Of a DNA stretch of 64,000 nucleotides, positions 1 to 9,817 are shown one piece after another (within the stretch, counting starts at the first letter, position 1; every line of letters starts with the position of its first letter). The stretch is from Sediminibacterium sp. (GTDB lineage Bacteria > Bacteroidota > Bacteroidia > Chitinophagales > Chitinophagaceae). The stretch covers positions 372,001 to 436,000 of the forward strand of contig JAFWCB010000004.1 in NCBI GenBank assembly GCA_017537025.1, read 5' to 3'. Under the pieces are notes generated by a model. That model did no database searches and had not been told where the DNA came from. It worked only from the letters and a program-made list of their open reading frames with translations. The position numbers and the translations under genes were made by a program.

Positions 1-2254
1 TTCTTTTTGTTACCTCCCAATCTTGCTTTTTATTAACCTCTTGAACAATCAAGTTCAAAATTGGAGAATGCTTTTTCTCAGAACCTTCAACTCTCTTTTT
101 AAGTTCAAGGAATTTTTTTTCGCTTGCACCTCTTGCATTTCTTGCCCAGAGATTTAGCTTGTTTTCAAAAGAGTGTTTGTTGATTTCTGTATCCTCAATA
201 TTTCTTCCTAAGCGAATAAAGCTGATTCCTTTAACTTTTGCCATTCGCTGAAGCACATTGTCCACTGCCAAATTAGTTTGTGATGTAATGAGGATTTTAG
301 CTTGGTGGTCTTTCGCTAAAATCTGTCTGATAAGTTCGGTAATAACAGCTGTCTTGCCTGTACCTGGGGGACCTTGAATAATTGTGATTGGGGGTCGGTA
401 AAGGGATTTAAGTATTGCATCCTTTTGGGCTGCTTCAAATTGTACTTTGTCTCCATTCTTGTCAGTTGAAATTACTTCAAGTTCTGCTATAATTTGCCCT
501 GAACTATTTGCCAAGCTTTGCAAATTTTCTGGCTGAAACAGATATTTCCGTAAGTCTGAATTGGTAATATTGTCATTCTCGTAATTTTTGATTGCATTTA
601 TTTGACGCTTGTATTGAATCTCCAGTAAAGAGGTGTCCTCAACCAAAAAGCCTTTTGATGGGATTCCATCTTTTTTCTTTACATTAAAGTCTTTAACAAA
701 AAGTAAATTTTTTGCTCTGACAAACTGTGTGCTGAAGCCAACACTTTCTTTCCCCTTTATTCCTGTTGCATCTGTTGTAGCTGATAAAGCCACTTCATTA
801 CCCTTTCTAAATGATGCTTGTGAACGTTTCAGAAAATTGTAAACATCTTCAAGGGATACTTTTTCATCAAGCACAATTTTAAAAGATGCTTCACTTGTTC
901 CATGAACTTCAAAGTCAGAATACTTTACCCGAAAGGCATTGTTCCGCAAATAGTTTATTTCTTCGTTTAAAAGAGTCATGTAATTTCTTAGAACTTCTTT
1001 TGGTGTTCTGCTAAGAGTTTGCGGTGTAGATTCCTGTTTATCCTGAAATACTTTCTCCAAGTAATTGAAAACATCATAAAAGTTATCTATGTTGGTTTCG
1101 TGTGGTTCTGCTGAAATGAAGTTTATTCCTGTCAACTTTATTCCTTTCTGAAAAGTTCTTGAATGATTCTGTTTTTCATTTTCTTCTAATGAATCAATTT
1201 TCTTCAAGCCTATTACTTCAAGGCAATTTCCTTTGTTTGAAGAAAAACAGGTGTGAGCATAAAAATTTGTAGAGGAAATTCTTGCTGAAACATTTTTGAA
1301 TTGCGGATGCCTGTTGTCATTTATTGAAATCGAAATGCCTTCAGAATTTGCTTCCCGTAGAAAATCCAGCAGATAATTCTTATCAGATGAATGAATCGCA
1401 AAAGGCTTTTCGGGAGTATGATTTATTACTTCAAAAAGTTTGTTAATTGAGTTTCGTAATTCAGAGTAACGGAAATATCTTTCTTCAGGTTCTGTTGCAA
1501 AGGATTTTTTGAAAACTGTTGCAAAATCAATTAAGCCTTCATTTGAAATTATGTTTTTGTAAAGTGTTATAACTTTTTGAAGCCTATTCTCATTATTCTC
1601 ATCGTCGTAAAACAGCTTGTGTCCTAAAAGGGAATAAAGCATACAGAGAGACAATGAATAAAAATCCGTTCGTGCTTGCAGTCGGTTTTCCTCCTTCTTG
1701 ATTAATTCTGGTGGTGAAAATTTATTACTGAATTCATTTTCCGATGGTCGCTTTGAAATTGTATGTTCAAGAATTGAAATTCCGAAGTCAATAATTACTG
1801 GATTTTCATCTTCCTTTATTAGAATATTTCTAGGATGAAGGTCTTTATGAAAAATGTTTTTCAATGCAGCTTGCTCAAGTGCATCTGAACAGTTATACCA
1901 AACCTGCAAAATATATTTTAAATATCGGGGAGAAACCTGATTTTCATTATTTACAAAATCTTCAAGTGATTTTTGATTTTCAATCTTCTCCAAAATGATA
2001 AAGTATGTTCCAGTATTCTCGTCACACCCAGCATCAATTACCTTGTTGATATATTCGCTGTTTATCTTTTTGAGGTGTCTTGCGACATTATTAAACTGTC
2101 TGGTAGCAGAACTACCTGAATCCAAATTCTTCGGAACTTTTGCAAAGTAGGTTTTAGCATCAGGTCCTTGCACATCAAAGACAAATGCATTGTTGGTTTC
2201 AACAACTTCGCTCACTCTGTCATAGGCTCCTAGCCTGTCAAATTTCTCTCCCAT
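1..2254 (-). CDS. Ser/Thr kinase-like domain fused to UPF1-like SF1 helicase (Mokosh type I MkoA-like), C-terminus off window
   Basis: 751 codons are visible from ATG at 2254; the frame runs open off the left edge. Residues about 1-270 form a protein-kinase-like domain: Lys39 in FAKVPK, catalytic loop HKDLHPRN with Asp138, and DFG with Asp156. A middle region of about 300 residues has no domain I recognise. A COG1112/UPF1-type helicase then begins: a Q-motif-like FEAAQKDAI, Walker A GPPGTGKT (Lys634), and motif Ia QTNLAVDNVLQRM. Kinase plus SF1 RNA/DNA helicase is the described architecture of Mokosh type I MkoA, whose partner MkoB is a PLD-family nuclease; any partner would lie left of position 1. 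It is transcribed away from the tra genes, which fits cargo. The family is confident; the Mokosh assignment is inference. Confidence 0.8.
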   Translation of the reverse strand, partial: MGEKFDRLGAYDRVSEVVETNNAFVFDVQGPDAKTYFAKVPKNLDSGSSATRQFNNVARHLKKINSEYINKVIDAGCDENTGTYFIILEKIENQKSLEDFVNNENQVSPRYLKYILQVWYNCSDALEQAALKNIFHKDLHPRNILIKEDENPVIIDFGISILEHTISKRPSENEFSNKFSPPELIKKEENRLQARTDFYSLSLCMLYSLLGHKLFYDDENNENRLQKVITLYKNIISNEGLIDFATVFKKSFATEPEERYFRYSELRNSINKLFEVINHTPEKPFAIHSSDKNYLLDFLREANSEGISISINDNRHPQFKNVSARISSTNFYAHTCFSSNKGNCLEVIGLKKIDSLEENEKQNHSRTFQKGIKLTGINFISAEPHETNIDNFYDVFNYLEKVFQDKQESTPQTLSRTPKEVLRNYMTLLNEEINYLRNNAFRVKYSDFEVHGTSEASFKIVLDEKVSLEDVYNFLKRSQASFRKGNEVALSATTDATGIKGKESVGFSTQFVRAKNLLFVKDFNVKKKDGIPSKGFLVEDTSLLEIQYKRQINAIKNYENDNITNSDLRKYLFQPENLQSLANSSGQIIAELEVISTDKNGDKVQFEAAQKDAILKSLYRPPITIIQGPPGTGKTAVITELIRQILAKDHQAKILITSQTNLAVDNVLQRMAKVKGISFIRLGRNIEDTEINKHSFENKLNLWARNARGASEKKFLELKKRVEGSEKKHSPILNLIVQEVNKKQDWEVTKR

Positions 2255-2339: not shown

Positions 2340-2450
2340 ATGCGAACTTAAAGTTATTCAATTTCGCATGAACACCCAAATGACTACCGAAGCTGAGTAA
2401 TAGTTCGAAATCTATTACTAAAAGAATATTTATATATTCTAAACGGTAGT
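2340..2450. other. Highly structured intergenic stretch (three hairpins plus an enclosing stem)
   Basis: In the 282-bp gap between the divergent kinase-helicase and traK genes I see four perfect inverted repeats. ATGCGAA 2340-2346 pairs with TTCGCAT 2363-2369. ACTACCG 2383-2389 pairs with CGGTAGT 2444-2450. Enclosed by that pair are AGTAATAG 2396-2403 with CTATTACT 2412-2419, and AGAATAT 2423-2429 with ATATTCT 2434-2440. The last three form a three-way junction of about 68 nt. It could be a small RNA, a leader for traK, a transfer or single-strand origin, or a recombination site. No function is claimed. The rest of the gap (2255-2339, 2451-2536) shows nothing else that I can name. Confidence 0.5.
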
Positions 2451-2536
2451 TAGCCCTACCTCCCTTACCCTATCATTCTCCTTCTTGGTAAAGTAATTGC
2501 AGAATATCCAATTGTGGGTTTAGAAAAATGTGAGCA

Positions 2537-3154
2537 ATGTTTCAAAAAACGAAAAATATAGATACCGCTTTCAGGTATATCCGTTTCTTCAGCCTGGCTT
2601 TTTTAGCAGCCTGTGTGCTTATATCAGTTTTCATTGCTTACAAAAGCTACCAGCTTTCGTCACAATCTCAGAACAAAGTTTTTATACTGGCAAACGGCAA
2701 AGCATTAGAAGCTTATGCTGCCGACAGAAAAGATAATATTCCAGTGGAAGCAAAAGACCATGTAAAAATGTTTCATCATTTCTTCTTTTCTCTTGACCCG
2801 GATGATAAGGTTATTCAGGCCAACATTACAAAAGCATTATACCTGGCAGATAATTCTGCAAAGCAACAATATGATAACCTGAAAGAGAATGGCTATTACT
2901 CAAACCTCATTTCGGGCAACATCAGCCAGGAAATCATAATGGATAGCATCATTATTAATACAGATGTGTATCCATTTTATTTCAGGTATAAAGGGAAACA
3001 GAAAATTATTCGCCCCACTACCATTGTAACCAGGAATCTTATTACCGAAGGATACCTGAGGAATGTATCCCGGAGTGATAATAATTCACATGGTTTTTTA
3101 ATTGAAAAATGGCGGACCCTGGAGAATACTGACATCAACATTCAAAACAGGTAG
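2537..3154 (+). CDS. traK: Conjugative transposon protein TraK (VirB8-like)
   Basis: 205 residues, the usual TraK length. A short cytoplasmic N-terminus with the RYIRF segment is followed by one membrane helix at about residues 17-36, then a periplasmic domain including the conserved VFILANGKALEA and VKMFHHFFF stretches. In this transfer apparatus TraK is the VirB8-like inner-membrane scaffold contacting the TraM/TraN (VirB10/VirB9-like) core. It is the first rightward gene and lies 282 bp from the oppositely oriented kinase-helicase gene, so it must have its own promoter here. In most relatives traJ lies directly upstream; it is absent at this position. The downstream gene starts 2 bp after its stop. 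Confidence 0.9.
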   Translation: MFQKTKNIDTAFRYIRFFSLAFLAACVLISVFIAYKSYQLSSQSQNKVFILANGKALEAYAADRKDNIPVEAKDHVKMFHHFFFSLDPDDKVIQANITKALYLADNSAKQQYDNLKENGYYSNLISGNISQEIIMDSIIINTDVYPFYFRYKGKQKIIRPTTIVTRNLITEGYLRNVSRSDNNSHGFLIEKWRTLENTDINIQNR

Positions 3155-3155
3155 T

Positions 3156-3653
3156 ATGTGGTTGTTCAAAAAGAAAAAGAAAGAGGTTCAATCAGATGAT
3201 AAAACTACCGTGTCTGATAAAGTGGCTGGCAAAATTGCCGGTGTGGGCATTAAAGTACAACAGCTATTTGCAGAAAACATGAACAGGATATTTATGAAAA
3301 CAGATTTTAAACGATTAAAACTAATACTGATAGTTTTCAGCGTTTGTGCAGGTGGCTACAGTATTTATCTTATTGTAAACAGTGTTTTCAGTCCTGAAAG
3401 AAAGCAGAAAGCTTTAGAAATACAGCAAATGGATATTCCAAAGCACTTTAATAAAACAGGAGATGAAACAGTAATGCCGGAGGCAACTATAGATGAACAA
3501 ACTTATTTACAAATACAGGATTTTAGAAAATATATGGATAGTTTAAAATTGAACAGAACGAATGAATACGACAGCATTCTGCAAGCCCGGCCGGGTTTGA
3601 TGGATAGTGTGCAGGTGCTGGAAAAAATTTATTTATCACAAAAACAAAAATGA
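3156..3653 (+). CDS. TraL-position conjugation protein, single membrane helix
   Basis: 165 residues from ATG 3156. An in-frame start at 3102 would overlap traK by 53 bp, and 3156 abuts the traK stop, so I prefer it. The N-terminus is very basic (WLFKKKKKEVQ), with one membrane helix at about residues 55-77 and a charged C-terminal region. Position between traK and traM matches traL of Bacteroidetes conjugative transposons, but sequence alone does not prove the family. The stop overlaps the traM start (ATGA), which implies translational coupling. Probable inner-membrane component of the mating apparatus. Confidence 0.6.
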   Translation: MWLFKKKKKEVQSDDKTTVSDKVAGKIAGVGIKVQQLFAENMNRIFMKTDFKRLKLILIVFSVCAGGYSIYLIVNSVFSPERKQKALEIQQMDIPKHFNKTGDETVMPEATIDEQTYLQIQDFRKYMDSLKLNRTNEYDSILQARPGLMDSVQVLEKIYLSQKQK

Positions 3654-4936
3654 AGTGTATGAGCAGTGTGCAAAGGTCGCAGGTCTTCCTGAGAAAAAGA
3701 AAAATGATGCTGGTGTTACCGCTACTGGTAATGCCATTTCTTACAATGGCTTTTTGGGCATTAGGGGGCGGAAAAAGTAATGAACCTGTTATTGCAAAGG
3801 AGCAAAAAGGCTTGAACCTAAATCTTCCTGATGCAAAAATGAAAGATGAAAACCTGACTGATAAGCTTAGCTTCTATGATAAAGCTGATAAAGATTCTGC
3901 TAAGATGGAAGAATGGATGCGGACAGACCCTTACTATCAGCAAAAACAGGATACCACTGTTTTACCTGTAAATGAACTGGAATTACTTACTCAAAATTCA
4001 GCAGGTAAATACAACCAGCGGCTGAACACTTCGCCGTATGAATATACTGGCAGCAATCCTGAAAAAAAGTTGATGGATAAGCTGGCGTTACTGCAAAAAG
4101 AAATCAATAAGCAGCCCGAAACTGAAACCACAACCAACAATGAAACAGGTATCACTAATCATGATGATGAATTTTCCAGCGAAGTAAAAAGGCTTGAAAA
4201 TATGATGCTGGCAATGGATAAAACCAACACCGGCGACCCCGAGATGCAGCAACTAAACGGCACATTGGAAAAAATATTGGACATACAGCATCCGCAACGG
4301 GTTAAGGATAAACTTAAAGAAAAATCAATGCGGCAAAAGCAGGTCGTATTTGCCGTAACCACTTCACCCAAATTGGCAAACGTATCGTTGATTGATACAA
4401 TGAAGAAAAAGTCAAACAGCTGCAATCAATTTTACGGAGTAACAAAAGAGAGTGAAGAAGCTACTGAAGGATTTGCAATTGAAGCGGTGGTGCACAGTAA
4501 TCAATCATTGGTAAATGGTGCTGTTATCCAGTTACGCTTATTTACAGATGTGTTTATTAATGGGGTACTAATTCCTAAAGGCACACCAGTAAATGGCATA
4601 TCATCGCTGAATAATGAAAGGCTGGAAGCAGAAATAAATTCCATCCGTTATAAAAATCAACTGTTCCCCGTGAAGTTAGAACTGTACGACATGGATGGTT
4701 TACCCGGCATTTACATCCCTGGTTCCATAAGCCGGGATGTGGCAAAAAACTCTGCTGACAACAGCCTGCAGTTAATGGAGCTAACCACTCTTGACCCTTC
4801 ATTAAAAGCTCAAGCGGCGGCGGCAGGAATCAACACAGTAAAAAGTTTGATGAGCCGAAAAGTAAAGCAGGTGAAAGTGATGATAAAGGAAGGATATAAA
4901 GTGCTGCTGAAAGATAAAAATACTGAAACCGATTAA
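3650..4936 (+). CDS. traM: Conjugative transposon protein TraM (VirB10-like)
   Basis: 428 residues. A short basic cytoplasmic N-terminus precedes a membrane helix at about 20-40, then a long low-complexity linker rich in Gln, Thr and Asn (about 45-245). The conserved C-terminal TraM domain (about 265-425) includes AVVHSNQSLVNGAVIQLRL and YDMDGLPGIYIPG. This is the VirB10-like layout of an inner-membrane-anchored protein spanning to the outer-membrane channel. It overlaps the preceding stop by four bases; traN starts 21 bp after its end. Confidence 0.9.
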   Translation: MKCMSSVQRSQVFLRKRKMMLVLPLLVMPFLTMAFWALGGGKSNEPVIAKEQKGLNLNLPDAKMKDENLTDKLSFYDKADKDSAKMEEWMRTDPYYQQKQDTTVLPVNELELLTQNSAGKYNQRLNTSPYEYTGSNPEKKLMDKLALLQKEINKQPETETTTNNETGITNHDDEFSSEVKRLENMMLAMDKTNTGDPEMQQLNGTLEKILDIQHPQRVKDKLKEKSMRQKQVVFAVTTSPKLANVSLIDTMKKKSNSCNQFYGVTKESEEATEGFAIEAVVHSNQSLVNGAVIQLRLFTDVFINGVLIPKGTPVNGISSLNNERLEAEINSIRYKNQLFPVKLELYDMDGLPGIYIPGSISRDVAKNSADNSLQLMELTTLDPSLKAQAAAAGINTVKSLMSRKVKQVKVMIKEGYKVLLKDKNTETD

Positions 4937-4957: not shown

Positions 4958-5722
4958 ATGAAAAGAATAGTGAGTATGATTTGTGGGTGCCTTGTAGTCA
5001 TGTTTAGTCTTGCACAAACAAAACTGAATATTACAACTGATAAAACTACCAGCCTTGTATTTCCTTTCGCCATTAAGCATGTTGACCGTGGCACAAGTTC
5101 TGTACTGGCGCAGCAGGTAAAAGAAGCACCGGAAATTTTATTAGTAAAAGCGGCAGTAAAAGATTTTACAGAAACAAATTTAAGTGTTGTAACGGATGAT
5201 GGCAGCGTATATGCCTTTACAGTTAATTATGATGCTAAGCCTGCTGTGTGGGTGCATTATTTACCCGTAAACAGAACGGCTACAATCAGTACTTATGCCA
5301 ATATGATACTGGATAATGAACGCATAGTAAAGAAAATAAAGGATAAGAAATACAACATGCAGGCAGGCATCAGGGGAATTTACATTAAAGACAATATCAT
5401 TTACTATCAGTTATACATCAAAAATGATGGCACAGTAGATTACGATATGGACTTGCTTCGTTTTTTTATTAAAGATAAGAAGCGAAGTAAAAGAACAGCT
5501 GTACAAGAAGTGGAACAAAAGCCTGTTTATATCACAGGTAATCACAGCAAGGTAAAAGGCAATAGCAAAACAGCTTTTGTTGTGGCTTTGGAAAAATTTA
5601 CTATACCTGACAAAAAGTATTTGGTGGTTCAAATAACCGAGAAGAACGGTGGCAGGCATTTTCTGTTAAGAGTAAATAATAAGGCTATCATGAAGTCAAA
5701 AGTACTACCCGATTTGAAATGA
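4958..5722 (+). CDS. traN: Conjugative transposon protein TraN (VirB9-like, DUF4138)
   Basis: 254 residues with a Sec signal peptide (MKRIVSMICGCLVVMFSLAQ). The N-terminal half carries the TraN hallmark: LVFPFAIKHVDRGTSSVLAQ, then VKAAVKDFTETNLSVVTDDGSVYAFTV. TraN is the VirB9-like periplasmic/outer-membrane partner of TraM. The length is somewhat shorter than the 280-330 residues I would expect, mainly at the C-terminus. The stop overlaps the start of the next gene (ATGA at 5719-5722). The traO and traQ genes that usually follow are not found here. Confidence 0.88.
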   Translation: MKRIVSMICGCLVVMFSLAQTKLNITTDKTTSLVFPFAIKHVDRGTSSVLAQQVKEAPEILLVKAAVKDFTETNLSVVTDDGSVYAFTVNYDAKPAVWVHYLPVNRTATISTYANMILDNERIVKKIKDKKYNMQAGIRGIYIKDNIIYYQLYIKNDGTVDYDMDLLRFFIKDKKRSKRTAVQEVEQKPVYITGNHSKVKGNSKTAFVVALEKFTIPDKKYLVVQITEKNGGRHFLLRVNNKAIMKSKVLPDLK

Positions 5723-8086: not shown

Positions 8087-8227
8087 ATGGCAAGTGTGAA
8101 ACCGGAACAGGTAATTGAAATTTTAAAGCGGCATAATGTGCATATCTCATTGGAGCAAGCGGTACTCATACTGGACTTTATGTTTAAATTTGCTAAGATA
8201 ACTTTAACGCAAAACAGAAGCACATGA
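8087..8227 (+). CDS. 46-residue helper protein coupled to the serine recombinase
   Basis: ATG 8087 to TGA 8225-8227, 46 residues: MASVKPEQVIEILK, then a hydrophobic helix around ISLEQAVLILDFMFKFA, ending QNRST. It has an unusually strong SD, and its stop overlaps the recombinase start (ATGA), so translation is probably coupled. The pattern (EQ-V-I-ILK followed by EQA--ILDF) resembles short ORFs I associate with recombinase genes in Bacteroidetes elements. It might be a small partner or regulator of the recombinase; no function is established. Confidence 0.65.
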   Translation: MASVKPEQVIEILKRHNVHISLEQAVLILDFMFKFAKITLTQNRST

Positions 8228-9768
8228 CAGCAGATTTATACATCCGTGTAAGTACAGATGAGCAGGCAGACAAAGGCTACTCACAGCGGGACCAGGAGGA
8301 ACGTTTAAGAAAGTATTGCGACAATAATCAGATAAAAGTCAGGCAGGTAATTTTTGAAGACCATTCTGCAAAGACGTTCAACCGTCCAAAGTGGAATGGT
8401 TTATTATTTGATTTAAAGAAGAAAAAAAATGCGGTTGATTTTGTTTTATTTTCTAAATGGGACAGGTTTAGCCGTAATGCAGGCGATGCTTACCAAATGA
8501 TAAACATTCTTCGTAAACTCGGAGTGGAACCCCAGGCGATTGAACAACCTTTGGATTTAGCAGTTCCGGAAAACAAGTTGATGCTTGCATTTTATCTGGC
8601 AGCCCCAGAAGTTGAAAACGACCGCAGGGCATTGAATGTTTTGCTTGGTATGCGGAAAGCGAAAAAGGAAGGAAGATGGATGGGTGTTGCTCCAGTTGGT
8701 TATGCAAATAAGATAACTGAGGATGGAAAAAAATATATTGCGCCTATTGAGCCGGAAGCAAGTACCATGAAATGGGTTTTTGAAACATTGGCGGTAGGCC
8801 AGTTAAATGTCGAACAAATAATGAAAGTGGCTTTTGAAAGAGGCGTGAAATGCTGTAAAGCTAATTTCTGGAACCTTTTAAGAAACCCTGTTTACTGTGG
8901 CCGAATTTATTTGTCAGGTTACAAAGAAGAAGAATCAAGGCATGTACAAGGTTTGCATCAGCCAATTATATCAGAAGCACTTTTTTATGATGTGCAGGAT
9001 TATTTGAATGGCAAGAAAAGAACCTACCGGGCAAAAGTGGGCAGTATGGATGAATTACAATTAAGAGGCTATTTGATTTGCCCTAAATGCGGCAAGCTGC
9101 TCACAGGCAGCGCTTCAAAAGGCAGAAACGGCAGGTACTACTACTATCATTGCGTTTCATCTTGTGGAGCAAGGTTCAAGGCTGAAAACGCCAACAAATT
9201 GTTTTCAGGAGAACTTAAAAAGTTAGTTCCCAAACCAGGCATGACAGAAGTTTATAAAGTGGTGTTGCAGGAAGAATTTAAAGCCCAAACAAAGGCGCAA
9301 CGAGAAGATTTAAGGCAGGTGAAAGAAGCATTGGAAAAAGCCAATGCGGAGCTTACAAATGCCCGTAAATTACTATTGTCAAATGAAATTGAGCCGTCAG
9401 AATATCGCAGCATCAAATCAGAATATGAAAAGAAAATAACCGGGCTTGAATCAAGGCTTATTGAACTATCGCAAGAAGGTAAAAGTATAGAACCCTTGCT
9501 GAATAGGGCATTGACAACACTTACTTGTTTAGATAAACTCTATGAAAAAGCAGATAACAAAGCTAAAAGAGAAATCATTGGTTCGATATTCCCCGAAAAA
9601 CTCGTTTTTGACGGATTCCAATATCGAACCGCAAGAATGAACGAAGCCGTTCAGCTAATATACAGTCTGGACAAGGGTTTCAGCCAAAATGAAAATGGAC
9701 AAACCGAACCAATTTTCGATTTGTCCACTTTAGTGCCCGAGACTGGATTCGAACCAGCACGCCGATGA
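8224..9768 (+). CDS. Large serine recombinase (integrase) of the element
   Basis: 514 residues. The N-terminal resolvase domain (about 1-145) has the catalytic YIRVSTDEQ with Ser10 and the SKWDRFSRN arginine motif. A Recombinase domain (about 150-260, with GRWMGVAPVGY and NPVYCGRIYL) is followed by a zinc ribbon (CPKCGK at about 293, then CVSSCG) and a long coiled coil (about 350-430), the layout of phiC31/TndX-type integrases. It should integrate and excise the element. The last 11 codons lie in the antisense strand of tRNA-Leu and read LVPETGFEPARR, so the C-terminus is supplied by the target site and would differ in the circular form. It is the last gene of the rightward unit. Confidence 0.93.
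   Translation: MTADLYIRVSTDEQADKGYSQRDQEERLRKYCDNNQIKVRQVIFEDHSAKTFNRPKWNGLLFDLKKKKNAVDFVLFSKWDRFSRNAGDAYQMINILRKLGVEPQAIEQPLDLAVPENKLMLAFYLAAPEVENDRRALNVLLGMRKAKKEGRWMGVAPVGYANKITEDGKKYIAPIEPEASTMKWVFETLAVGQLNVEQIMKVAFERGVKCCKANFWNLLRNPVYCGRIYLSGYKEEESRHVQGLHQPIISEALFYDVQDYLNGKKRTYRAKVGSMDELQLRGYLICPKCGKLLTGSASKGRNGRYYYYHCVSSCGARFKAENANKLFSGELKKLVPKPGMTEVYKVVLQEEFKAQTKAQREDLRQVKEALEKANAELTNARKLLLSNEIEPSEYRSIKSEYEKKITGLESRLIELSQEGKSIEPLLNRALTTLTCLDKLYEKADNKAKREIIGSIFPEKLVFDGFQYRTARMNEAVQLIYSLDKGFSQNENGQTEPIFDLSTLVPETGFEPARR
9734..9768. other. Putative right attachment site (attR) within the tRNA-Leu 3' half
   Basis: The overlap of the recombinase 3' end with the tRNA-Leu acceptor and T-arm sequence marks the element-host junction. 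Base 9733 and below is element DNA if the tRNA is taken as host sequence. The three bases after the discriminator read CTA rather than CCA in tRNA sense, so no CCA end is encoded here. The exact crossover dinucleotide cannot be fixed without the left end or an empty site. Confidence 0.6.
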
Positions 9769-9817
9769 AAGCACCACCACCTCAAAGTGGCTTGTCTACC
9801 AATTTCAACACCCGGGC
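9734..9817 (-). tRNA. tRNA-Leu(GAG)
   Basis: Reading the minus strand, GCCCGGG at the 5' end pairs with CTCGGGC at the 3' end (one G-U). The anticodon stem CCACT/GGTGG encloses loop TTGAGGT with anticodon GAG (CUC, Leu), a long variable arm follows, and the T-loop is TTCGAAT. The 84-nt length and long variable arm fit a class II tRNA-Leu. It follows argS by 30 bp on the same strand. Its 3' end is the insertion target of the integrative element, so its native terminator has been displaced. Confidence 0.93.

Follow-up and report, generated by a model that had tools for sequence, protein, structure and literature searches.

The window analyzed here—the whole 64,000-nt stretch of DNA, positions 372001–436000 of contig C17 in genome G000 (3.19 Mb, 29 contigs; window position equals C17 position minus 372000)—begins inside a gene that, together with its neighbor beyond the left edge, we read as Mokosh type I, an anti-phage system present here with both of its genes (mkoA plus mkoB) and carried as cargo on a conjugative element of the CTnDOT kind known from Bacteroides. 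From sequence comparison, we give this reading a probability of about 0.83. Mokosh itself is already known (its original description is reportedly that of Millman and co-workers in 2022), and the window pair is a further member of Mokosh type I. More interesting than the assignment is where the pair sits: a slot inside the transfer operon in which the toxin–antitoxin pair AbiE is constant and its neighbor variable.

Domain Architecture of MkoA

The open frame at window positions 2–2254 (minus strand) spans 751 residues in the ORF list and continues past the left window edge. With the remainder read from the same contig, the complete mkoA occupies C17:370760–374254 on the minus strand and encodes 1,164 residues without internal stops. 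The features of the pair are as follows:

1..2254, minus strand: mkoA, in-window part (residues 1–751 of 1,164; open frame 2–2254); ORFs, PADLOC MkoA 1.1e-152
1400..2254, minus strand: MkoA protein kinase domain (residues 1–285; K39, D138, N143, D156); Pfam Pkinase 2.5e-20, alignment of 16 relatives
455..1399, minus strand: MkoA middle region (residues 286–600); Pfam, PDB sequence search, profile alignment
1..454, minus strand: start of the MkoA SF1 (UPF1-like) helicase core (residues 601–751; runs to the protein end beyond the window); Pfam AAA_11, AAA_12
C17:369310–370767 (left of window), minus strand: mkoB, 485 residues; PADLOC MkoB 7.7e-27

Pfam matches to MkoA comprise Pkinase at residues 35–228 (2.5e-20), AAA_11 at 606–886 (1.7e-45) and AAA_12 at 917–1118 (3.2e-39); these rule out a chance open frame. 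The original prediction had named an intact kinase core joined in one frame to a UPF1-like SF1 helicase, and both are borne out: Lys39 (YFAK), Asp138 (HKDLHPRN) and Asp156 (IDFG) are found as named, with Asn143 alongside, and the helicase carries the Walker A Lys634 in GPPGTGKT and motif Ia as SQTNLAVDNVL. The remaining helicase motifs, sought left of position 1, are present between residues 852 and 1107: DEAA (852–855), GDHKQLPP (876–883), VDSFQGSEKD (1065–1074) and NRINVALTR (1099–1107), which we take to be motifs II to VI. UPF1 and SMUBP-2 chains were among the matches of a PDB sequence search. Identity with the helicase of the PLuB system (NF040671) was rejected, at 172.2 bits vs. a cut-off of 999 bits.

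Between kinase and helicase, the original prediction saw about 300 residues matching nothing and perhaps forming a sensor; this survives in part. No Pfam match was found for residues 280–606 of the window's own protein and no PDB sequence match for the middle region, while in MkoA relatives this region gave four weak single-member Pfam matches (best 0.0023). When residues 280–1164 were aligned as a profile to 22 IGHMBP2-like helicases of the phylum, the default setting was confident from residue 527. A permissive setting moved the start to ~298 and a global setting to ~377, both at low confidence; we did not take these extensions as evidence. The middle region alone, set against the N-terminal regions of IGHMBP2-like helicases, reached a probability of 0.3% in profile alignment. 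In UPF1-like helicases, a stalk and a 1B domain precede motif I, and MkoA residues ~400–600 are probably this stalk/1B part, as judged from their position and not from the alignment itself. A sensor may lie in the ~110 residues that directly follow the kinase (~286–400) and carry no assigned domain.

The Two-Gene Pair and Its Assignment to Mokosh Type I

The PLD-family nuclease gene that had also been sought left of position 1 is mkoB, which starts inside the end of mkoA (ATGGCTAA; an 8-nt overlap, mkoB downstream); the overlapping genes are inherited as a unit. The proposed Mokosh type I-like identity agrees with PADLOC, whose MkoA profile matches residues 32–1146 (1.1e-152; profile positions 31–1095 of 1112) and whose MkoB profile matches at 7.7e-27 in two stretches (profile positions 22–395 and 543–585 of 610). 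For the MkoB of this pair, Pfam gave no match at E 0.01; PLDc_2 is found in 10 of the 12 members of an MkoB alignment (A4) that omits one truncated and three HKD-less proteins described below. All 12 keep the HxKx4D motif and the serine and asparagine that follow it, with one motif per chain, as in those single-domain PLD nucleases that act as dimers. By alignment, the kinase, helicase and HKD (His424, Lys426) active-site residues are all intact in the window's pair.

The PADLOC library prints no cut-offs for these profiles. In whole-genome searches of 14 control genomes, nine match the MkoB profile (PDLC03922) at E 0.001 and four the MkoA profile (PDLC03920) at 1e-70; across the phylum, 49 of 395 genomes match the MkoA profile, most of them via the helicase part only. 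Because the profiles are unspecific on their own, the assignment rests on the kinase and helicase in one chain together with the overlapping MkoB gene. Specifically, the pair shares with Mokosh type I a UPF1-like (presumably COG1112-type) SF1 helicase with a serine/threonine kinase in the same protein, a PLD-type nuclease in the next, separate gene, and matches to both PADLOC profiles over most of their length. It differs in its MkoB, which falls short of the PDLC03922 profile in length (485 vs. 610) and scores a modest 92.8 bits, and in its placement in a slot inside the tra operon.

According to the available part of PMC11672841, type I Mokosh has two genes, and in type II helicase and PLD nuclease share one gene. 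The helicase and PLD parts of the window pair both align to the type II protein MkoC (PADLOC likewise matches the window's MkoB to the nuclease end of MkoC), but here they form two genes and come with a kinase. Two further defense-associated kinases, PD-T4-6 and the MADS kinase Mad6, match the N-terminal domain of MkoA in matches that cover the kinase only.

Relatives, Conservation and Spread

The comparison took in the 80 highest-ranking of 419 candidate loci, these 80 from named genomes, together with 5 loci of viral contigs. Kinase and helicase occur in one chain in 11 of these loci, and an MkoB homolog lies directly downstream in all 10 of the named-genome loci whose contig continues (L019–L024, L027, L039, L045 and L088); the locus on the viral contig L099 breaks off at the contig end and falls outside this count. 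Our own MkoB profile recognized seven of the ten homologs and PADLOC three more (L022, L027 and L088), so that the earlier miss at these three reflects a limit of our profile. Distances for kinase, middle region, helicase and MkoB correlate at r = 0.97–0.99 over 12 pairs, values that are also expected from common descent of neighboring genes alone.

Of 16 aligned MkoA proteins, 15 keep all four kinase residues (Lys, HxD Asp, Asn and DFG Asp). In the MkoA of L023 (L023:5734-8913), Glu replaces the Lys and Asn replaces the HxD Asp, which makes it a natural pseudokinase, with an HKD-bearing MkoB next to it; kinase catalysis is thus not universal. The HKD motif is absent from the MkoB of three distant relatives (L022:7334-8653, L027:5107-6606 and L088:8891-10216), all of which match PDLC03923 and adjoin an MkoA, and whose C-terminal halves gave no Pfam match at E 0.5; PLD cleavage is thus not universal in the wider family. 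At L137 (L137:10007-10822), an MkoB shortened to 272 residues, its PLD part gone, stands behind an intact MkoA. In L065, L091 and L095, a helicase without a kinase match is followed by a separate gene matching our MkoB profile (7e-7, 2e-4 and 1e-6, respectively), an arrangement that is between type I and type II.

Mokosh is found in 4 of 147 genomes of the genus, the window's included: two carry the window version and two a 69%-identical version. An identical MkoA occurs in a second species and a 98%-identical one in another genus (G890); beyond these and the 69% copies, the nearest complete MkoA relatives found are 29–31% identical. The two genomes with the 69% version share 15.9 kb around it at 99.9% identity, and directly beside this version stand a prokaryotic Argonaute (PDLC02385, 4.3e-273; L013:15358-18504) and RhuM. 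A RhuM-like gene, judged by N-terminal sequence only, also lies beside Mokosh on the viral contig L099.

The Conjugative Element

The window pair is embedded in the following genes:

C17:366429–367628 (left of window), plus strand (opposite to mkoA): traJ; Pfam CtnDOT_TraJ 1.2e-21
C17:367629–368618 (left of window), minus strand: abiEii; PADLOC AbiEii 1.4e-72
C17:368587–369171 (left of window), minus strand: abiEi; PADLOC AbiEi 8.4e-90
2448..2536, plus strand: traK leader, with 2447/2448 the shared slot edge; alignments to elements without Mokosh, leader alignment
2537..3154, plus strand: traK, 205 residues, first tra gene beyond the slot; position, no Pfam match
3650..4936, plus strand: traM; Pfam Transposon_TraM 4.2e-53
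4958..5722, plus strand: traN-like gene (DUF4138), presumably traN; Pfam DUF4138 1.5e-63
8224..9768, plus strand: large serine recombinase at the element's right end; Pfam Resolvase 1.7e-24, Recombinase 4.8e-11
9733..9817, minus strand: tRNA-Leu (GAG); the stretch in common with the G010 and G728 elements ends at 9760, inside the tRNA

Pfam identifies CtnDOT-type tra genes on both flanks of the module, TraG and TraJ on one side and TraM and the DUF4138 protein on the other; traK takes its name from its position between TraJ and TraM. The original prediction, that of cargo on an integrative conjugative element facing away from the tra operon, was right about the mobile element and the opposite strand but not about the position: mkoA, mkoB and the AbiE pair lie inside the operon, antisense, between traJ and traK. 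The end of traJ meets the end of abiEii, mkoB and abiEi share a strand at a distance of 138 nt, and mkoA and traK have their starts 282 nt apart. The two abi genes, for the antitoxin AbiEi and the nucleotidyltransferase AbiEii, occur together and match AbiE, a type IV toxin–antitoxin system whose activity here is predicted.

A stretch of 60.2 kb (C17:321564–381760) is 99.9% identical in the second genome that carries the window's Mokosh version, and ends inside tRNA-Leu. The element sits in tRNA-Leu GAG in the window and in tRNA-Leu CAG in the second species (L010:4885-4969), with the large serine recombinase reading into the tRNA; given this near-identity in different tRNA-Leu genes of two species, the element moved recently. 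A search for attachment repeats gave no convincing second copy of the tRNA end (longest other match 17 bases), and since the neighbor genome is still 84–91% similar beyond C17:321564, the comparison does not define the element's left end. In promoter and terminator scans, site numbers did not exceed those in shuffled sequence. Judged from ORFs only, the shared element has a large region for metal efflux as well, with CusA/CzcA-like pumps and heavy-metal-binding proteins (L015, L003:375-7960).

The traJ–traK Junction

To place the pair in context, we examined 49 distinct traK places (26 + 23, with two overlapping matches of one broken gene counted as one), a subset of a longer list. In 37 of the 49, traJ lies ≤420 nt from traK; another 11 have an occupied junction, which in two cases runs into a contig end, and in one no recognizable traJ is present. 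A general hotspot in all such elements was rejected on the grounds that the junction is empty in those 37. A further place, on contig C3 of G973, was added as the twelfth occupied one.

The contents of the 12 occupied slots vary. Mokosh fills three (G000, G010 and G890) and PD-T7-1, by PADLOC, three others (G829, G985 and, as a 370-residue version, G728). G660 holds a thioredoxin-like gene, and G973 has two occupied slots, one with a 438-residue gene without a PADLOC match and one with a 414-residue gene with SspA/DndA-type matches, so that the slot also holds genes not known as defense genes. In G901 there is AbiE only, and in G898 and G795 the contig ends inside the slot, in G795 with a partial gene of 179 residues. 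AbiE, in turn, is present in all 10 occupied slots readable that far—three times each beside Mokosh, PD-T7-1 and other genes, and once with no other gene—albeit with abiEii cut by the contig end in G973 C19 and its frame interrupted in G829. In 6 of these 10 readable cases, the variable neighbor of the constant AbiE is thus Mokosh or PD-T7-1 (PADLOC).

The edges of the slot are near base-exact. Of nine elements without Mokosh that were compared with the window's, eight regain similarity on the traK side at C17:374447 or 374448 and the ninth (G901) at 374464; on the AbiE side, similarity stops between 369247 and 369277 (near C17:369273) in the seven elements with that side present. The traK leader of slot-bearing elements opens with a short conserved stretch, and the same stretch stands at the traJ end in 2 of 3 aligned insertion-free elements. 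Between G000 and G890, which belong to different genera, the slot is 96.0% identical, whereas the flanking tra genes are 85–89% and abiE 91.5% identical. From this difference between slot and tra genes, we conclude that the Mokosh module was exchanged after the backbones diverged, and moves on its own. Within mkoA, 113 of 3,492 bases differ between the two, in 94 synonymous and 18 non-synonymous codons, a ratio that points to purifying selection.

These patterns lead us to propose, at even odds, that the junction is a dedicated immunity exchange slot in which AbiE stays fixed by traJ, and the cassette reaching to the traK leader is swapped through recombination at the conserved edges, independently of the backbone. 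If so, a conjugative element would update its anti-phage load with its transfer operon retained, and the antisense placement would couple defense and transfer. New slot occupants are candidate defense genes. Literature searches, as far as their listings go, returned no description of a Mokosh or an exchange slot inside a tra operon.

Two occupied places have additional structure. In G660, the 3′ end of traJ is duplicated (L167:7115-7249), with further cargo between the copies; in G728, a fragment of the traJ end lies beside abiEii (L184:12855-13034), with more genes beyond. It looks as if insertions pile up at the traJ end.

Alternative Explanations

The tra-operon position invites the thought that the pair serves the element itself, either by excluding competing plasmids and conjugative elements or by controlling transfer; it would then act on incoming single-stranded conjugative DNA, its expression tied to transfer by its position. 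The antisense location between traJ and traK and the near-identity of the carrier element in two species speak for such a role. However, at 17 other Mokosh loci (one on a viral contig; 8–20 kb each), we found no relatives of the element's TraG, TraJ, TraK, TraM, TraN or AbiE (tblastn, E 0.001), so that Mokosh is neither tied to this element nor dependent on such an operon, and the slot swaps Mokosh for PD-T7-1, the profile of an anti-phage family. We consider service to the element improbable. That Mokosh and AbiE make up one four-gene system with a joint mechanism is more improbable by a clear step: while the two share a strand, lie within 138 nt of each other, and AbiE adjoins the slot in all 10 readable elements, AbiE stays when PD-T7-1, another gene or nothing takes the place of Mokosh, and no relatives of it were found in the 8–20 kb of the same 17 loci. 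On these two grounds, AbiE was rejected as a part of Mokosh and is treated as a separate system.

The least probable reading, by a small step further, seems to us a housekeeping role in RNA or DNA repair and none in defense, with MkoA as an IGHMBP2-type helicase that is mobile and has an added kinase. The IGHMBP2 family model (TIGR00376) does align to MkoA residues 546–1134, and kinase-less relatives of about 630–830 residues are common in the phylum. Yet the score, 210.4 bits vs. a curated cut-off of 348.9, led us to reject this identity, and neither the patchy occurrence (4 of 147 genomes of the genus) nor the MkoB gene in each of the 10 testable named loci (from the best 80 of 419 candidates) is what such a helicase would lead one to expect. 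An anti-phage Mokosh type I pair remains our preferred reading.

Proposed Mechanism

For this anti-phage pair, we propose a mechanism whose steps, taken jointly, we think as apt to be right as wrong. MkoA and MkoB would form a complex, with MkoB bound through its N-terminal part. On phage nucleic acid, most probably RNA or single-stranded DNA that replication or transcription exposes, the MkoA helicase would serve as sensor or motor, and MkoB, paired as a dimer in view of its one HKD motif per chain, would cut the nucleic acid so engaged. The kinase would phosphorylate MkoA, MkoB or a phage protein and thereby set the threshold; in type II Mokosh, helicase and PLD nuclease share one gene, which suggests that these two form the core, with the kinase as a regulator. 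The element, for its part, keeps the pair in the traJ–traK exchange slot beside AbiE.

Either RNA or DNA may be the target, as both fit the sequence. Hachiman differs from Mokosh in its helicase family and its nuclease, and it has no kinase. What the two would have in common is a working principle only, in that a sensing helicase controls a nuclease within a complex in Hachiman (HamAB), according to the available part of PMC12278908. For Mokosh, the available part of PMC11291487 states that the system degrades foreign viral transcripts, and no study of its mechanism was found among the titles listed since 2024. Three natural Mokosh copies of 96–100% identity exist in elements from three genomes and two genera, and the L023 pseudokinase and the HKD-less MkoB relatives are natural tests of the roles of kinase and nuclease in Mokosh.
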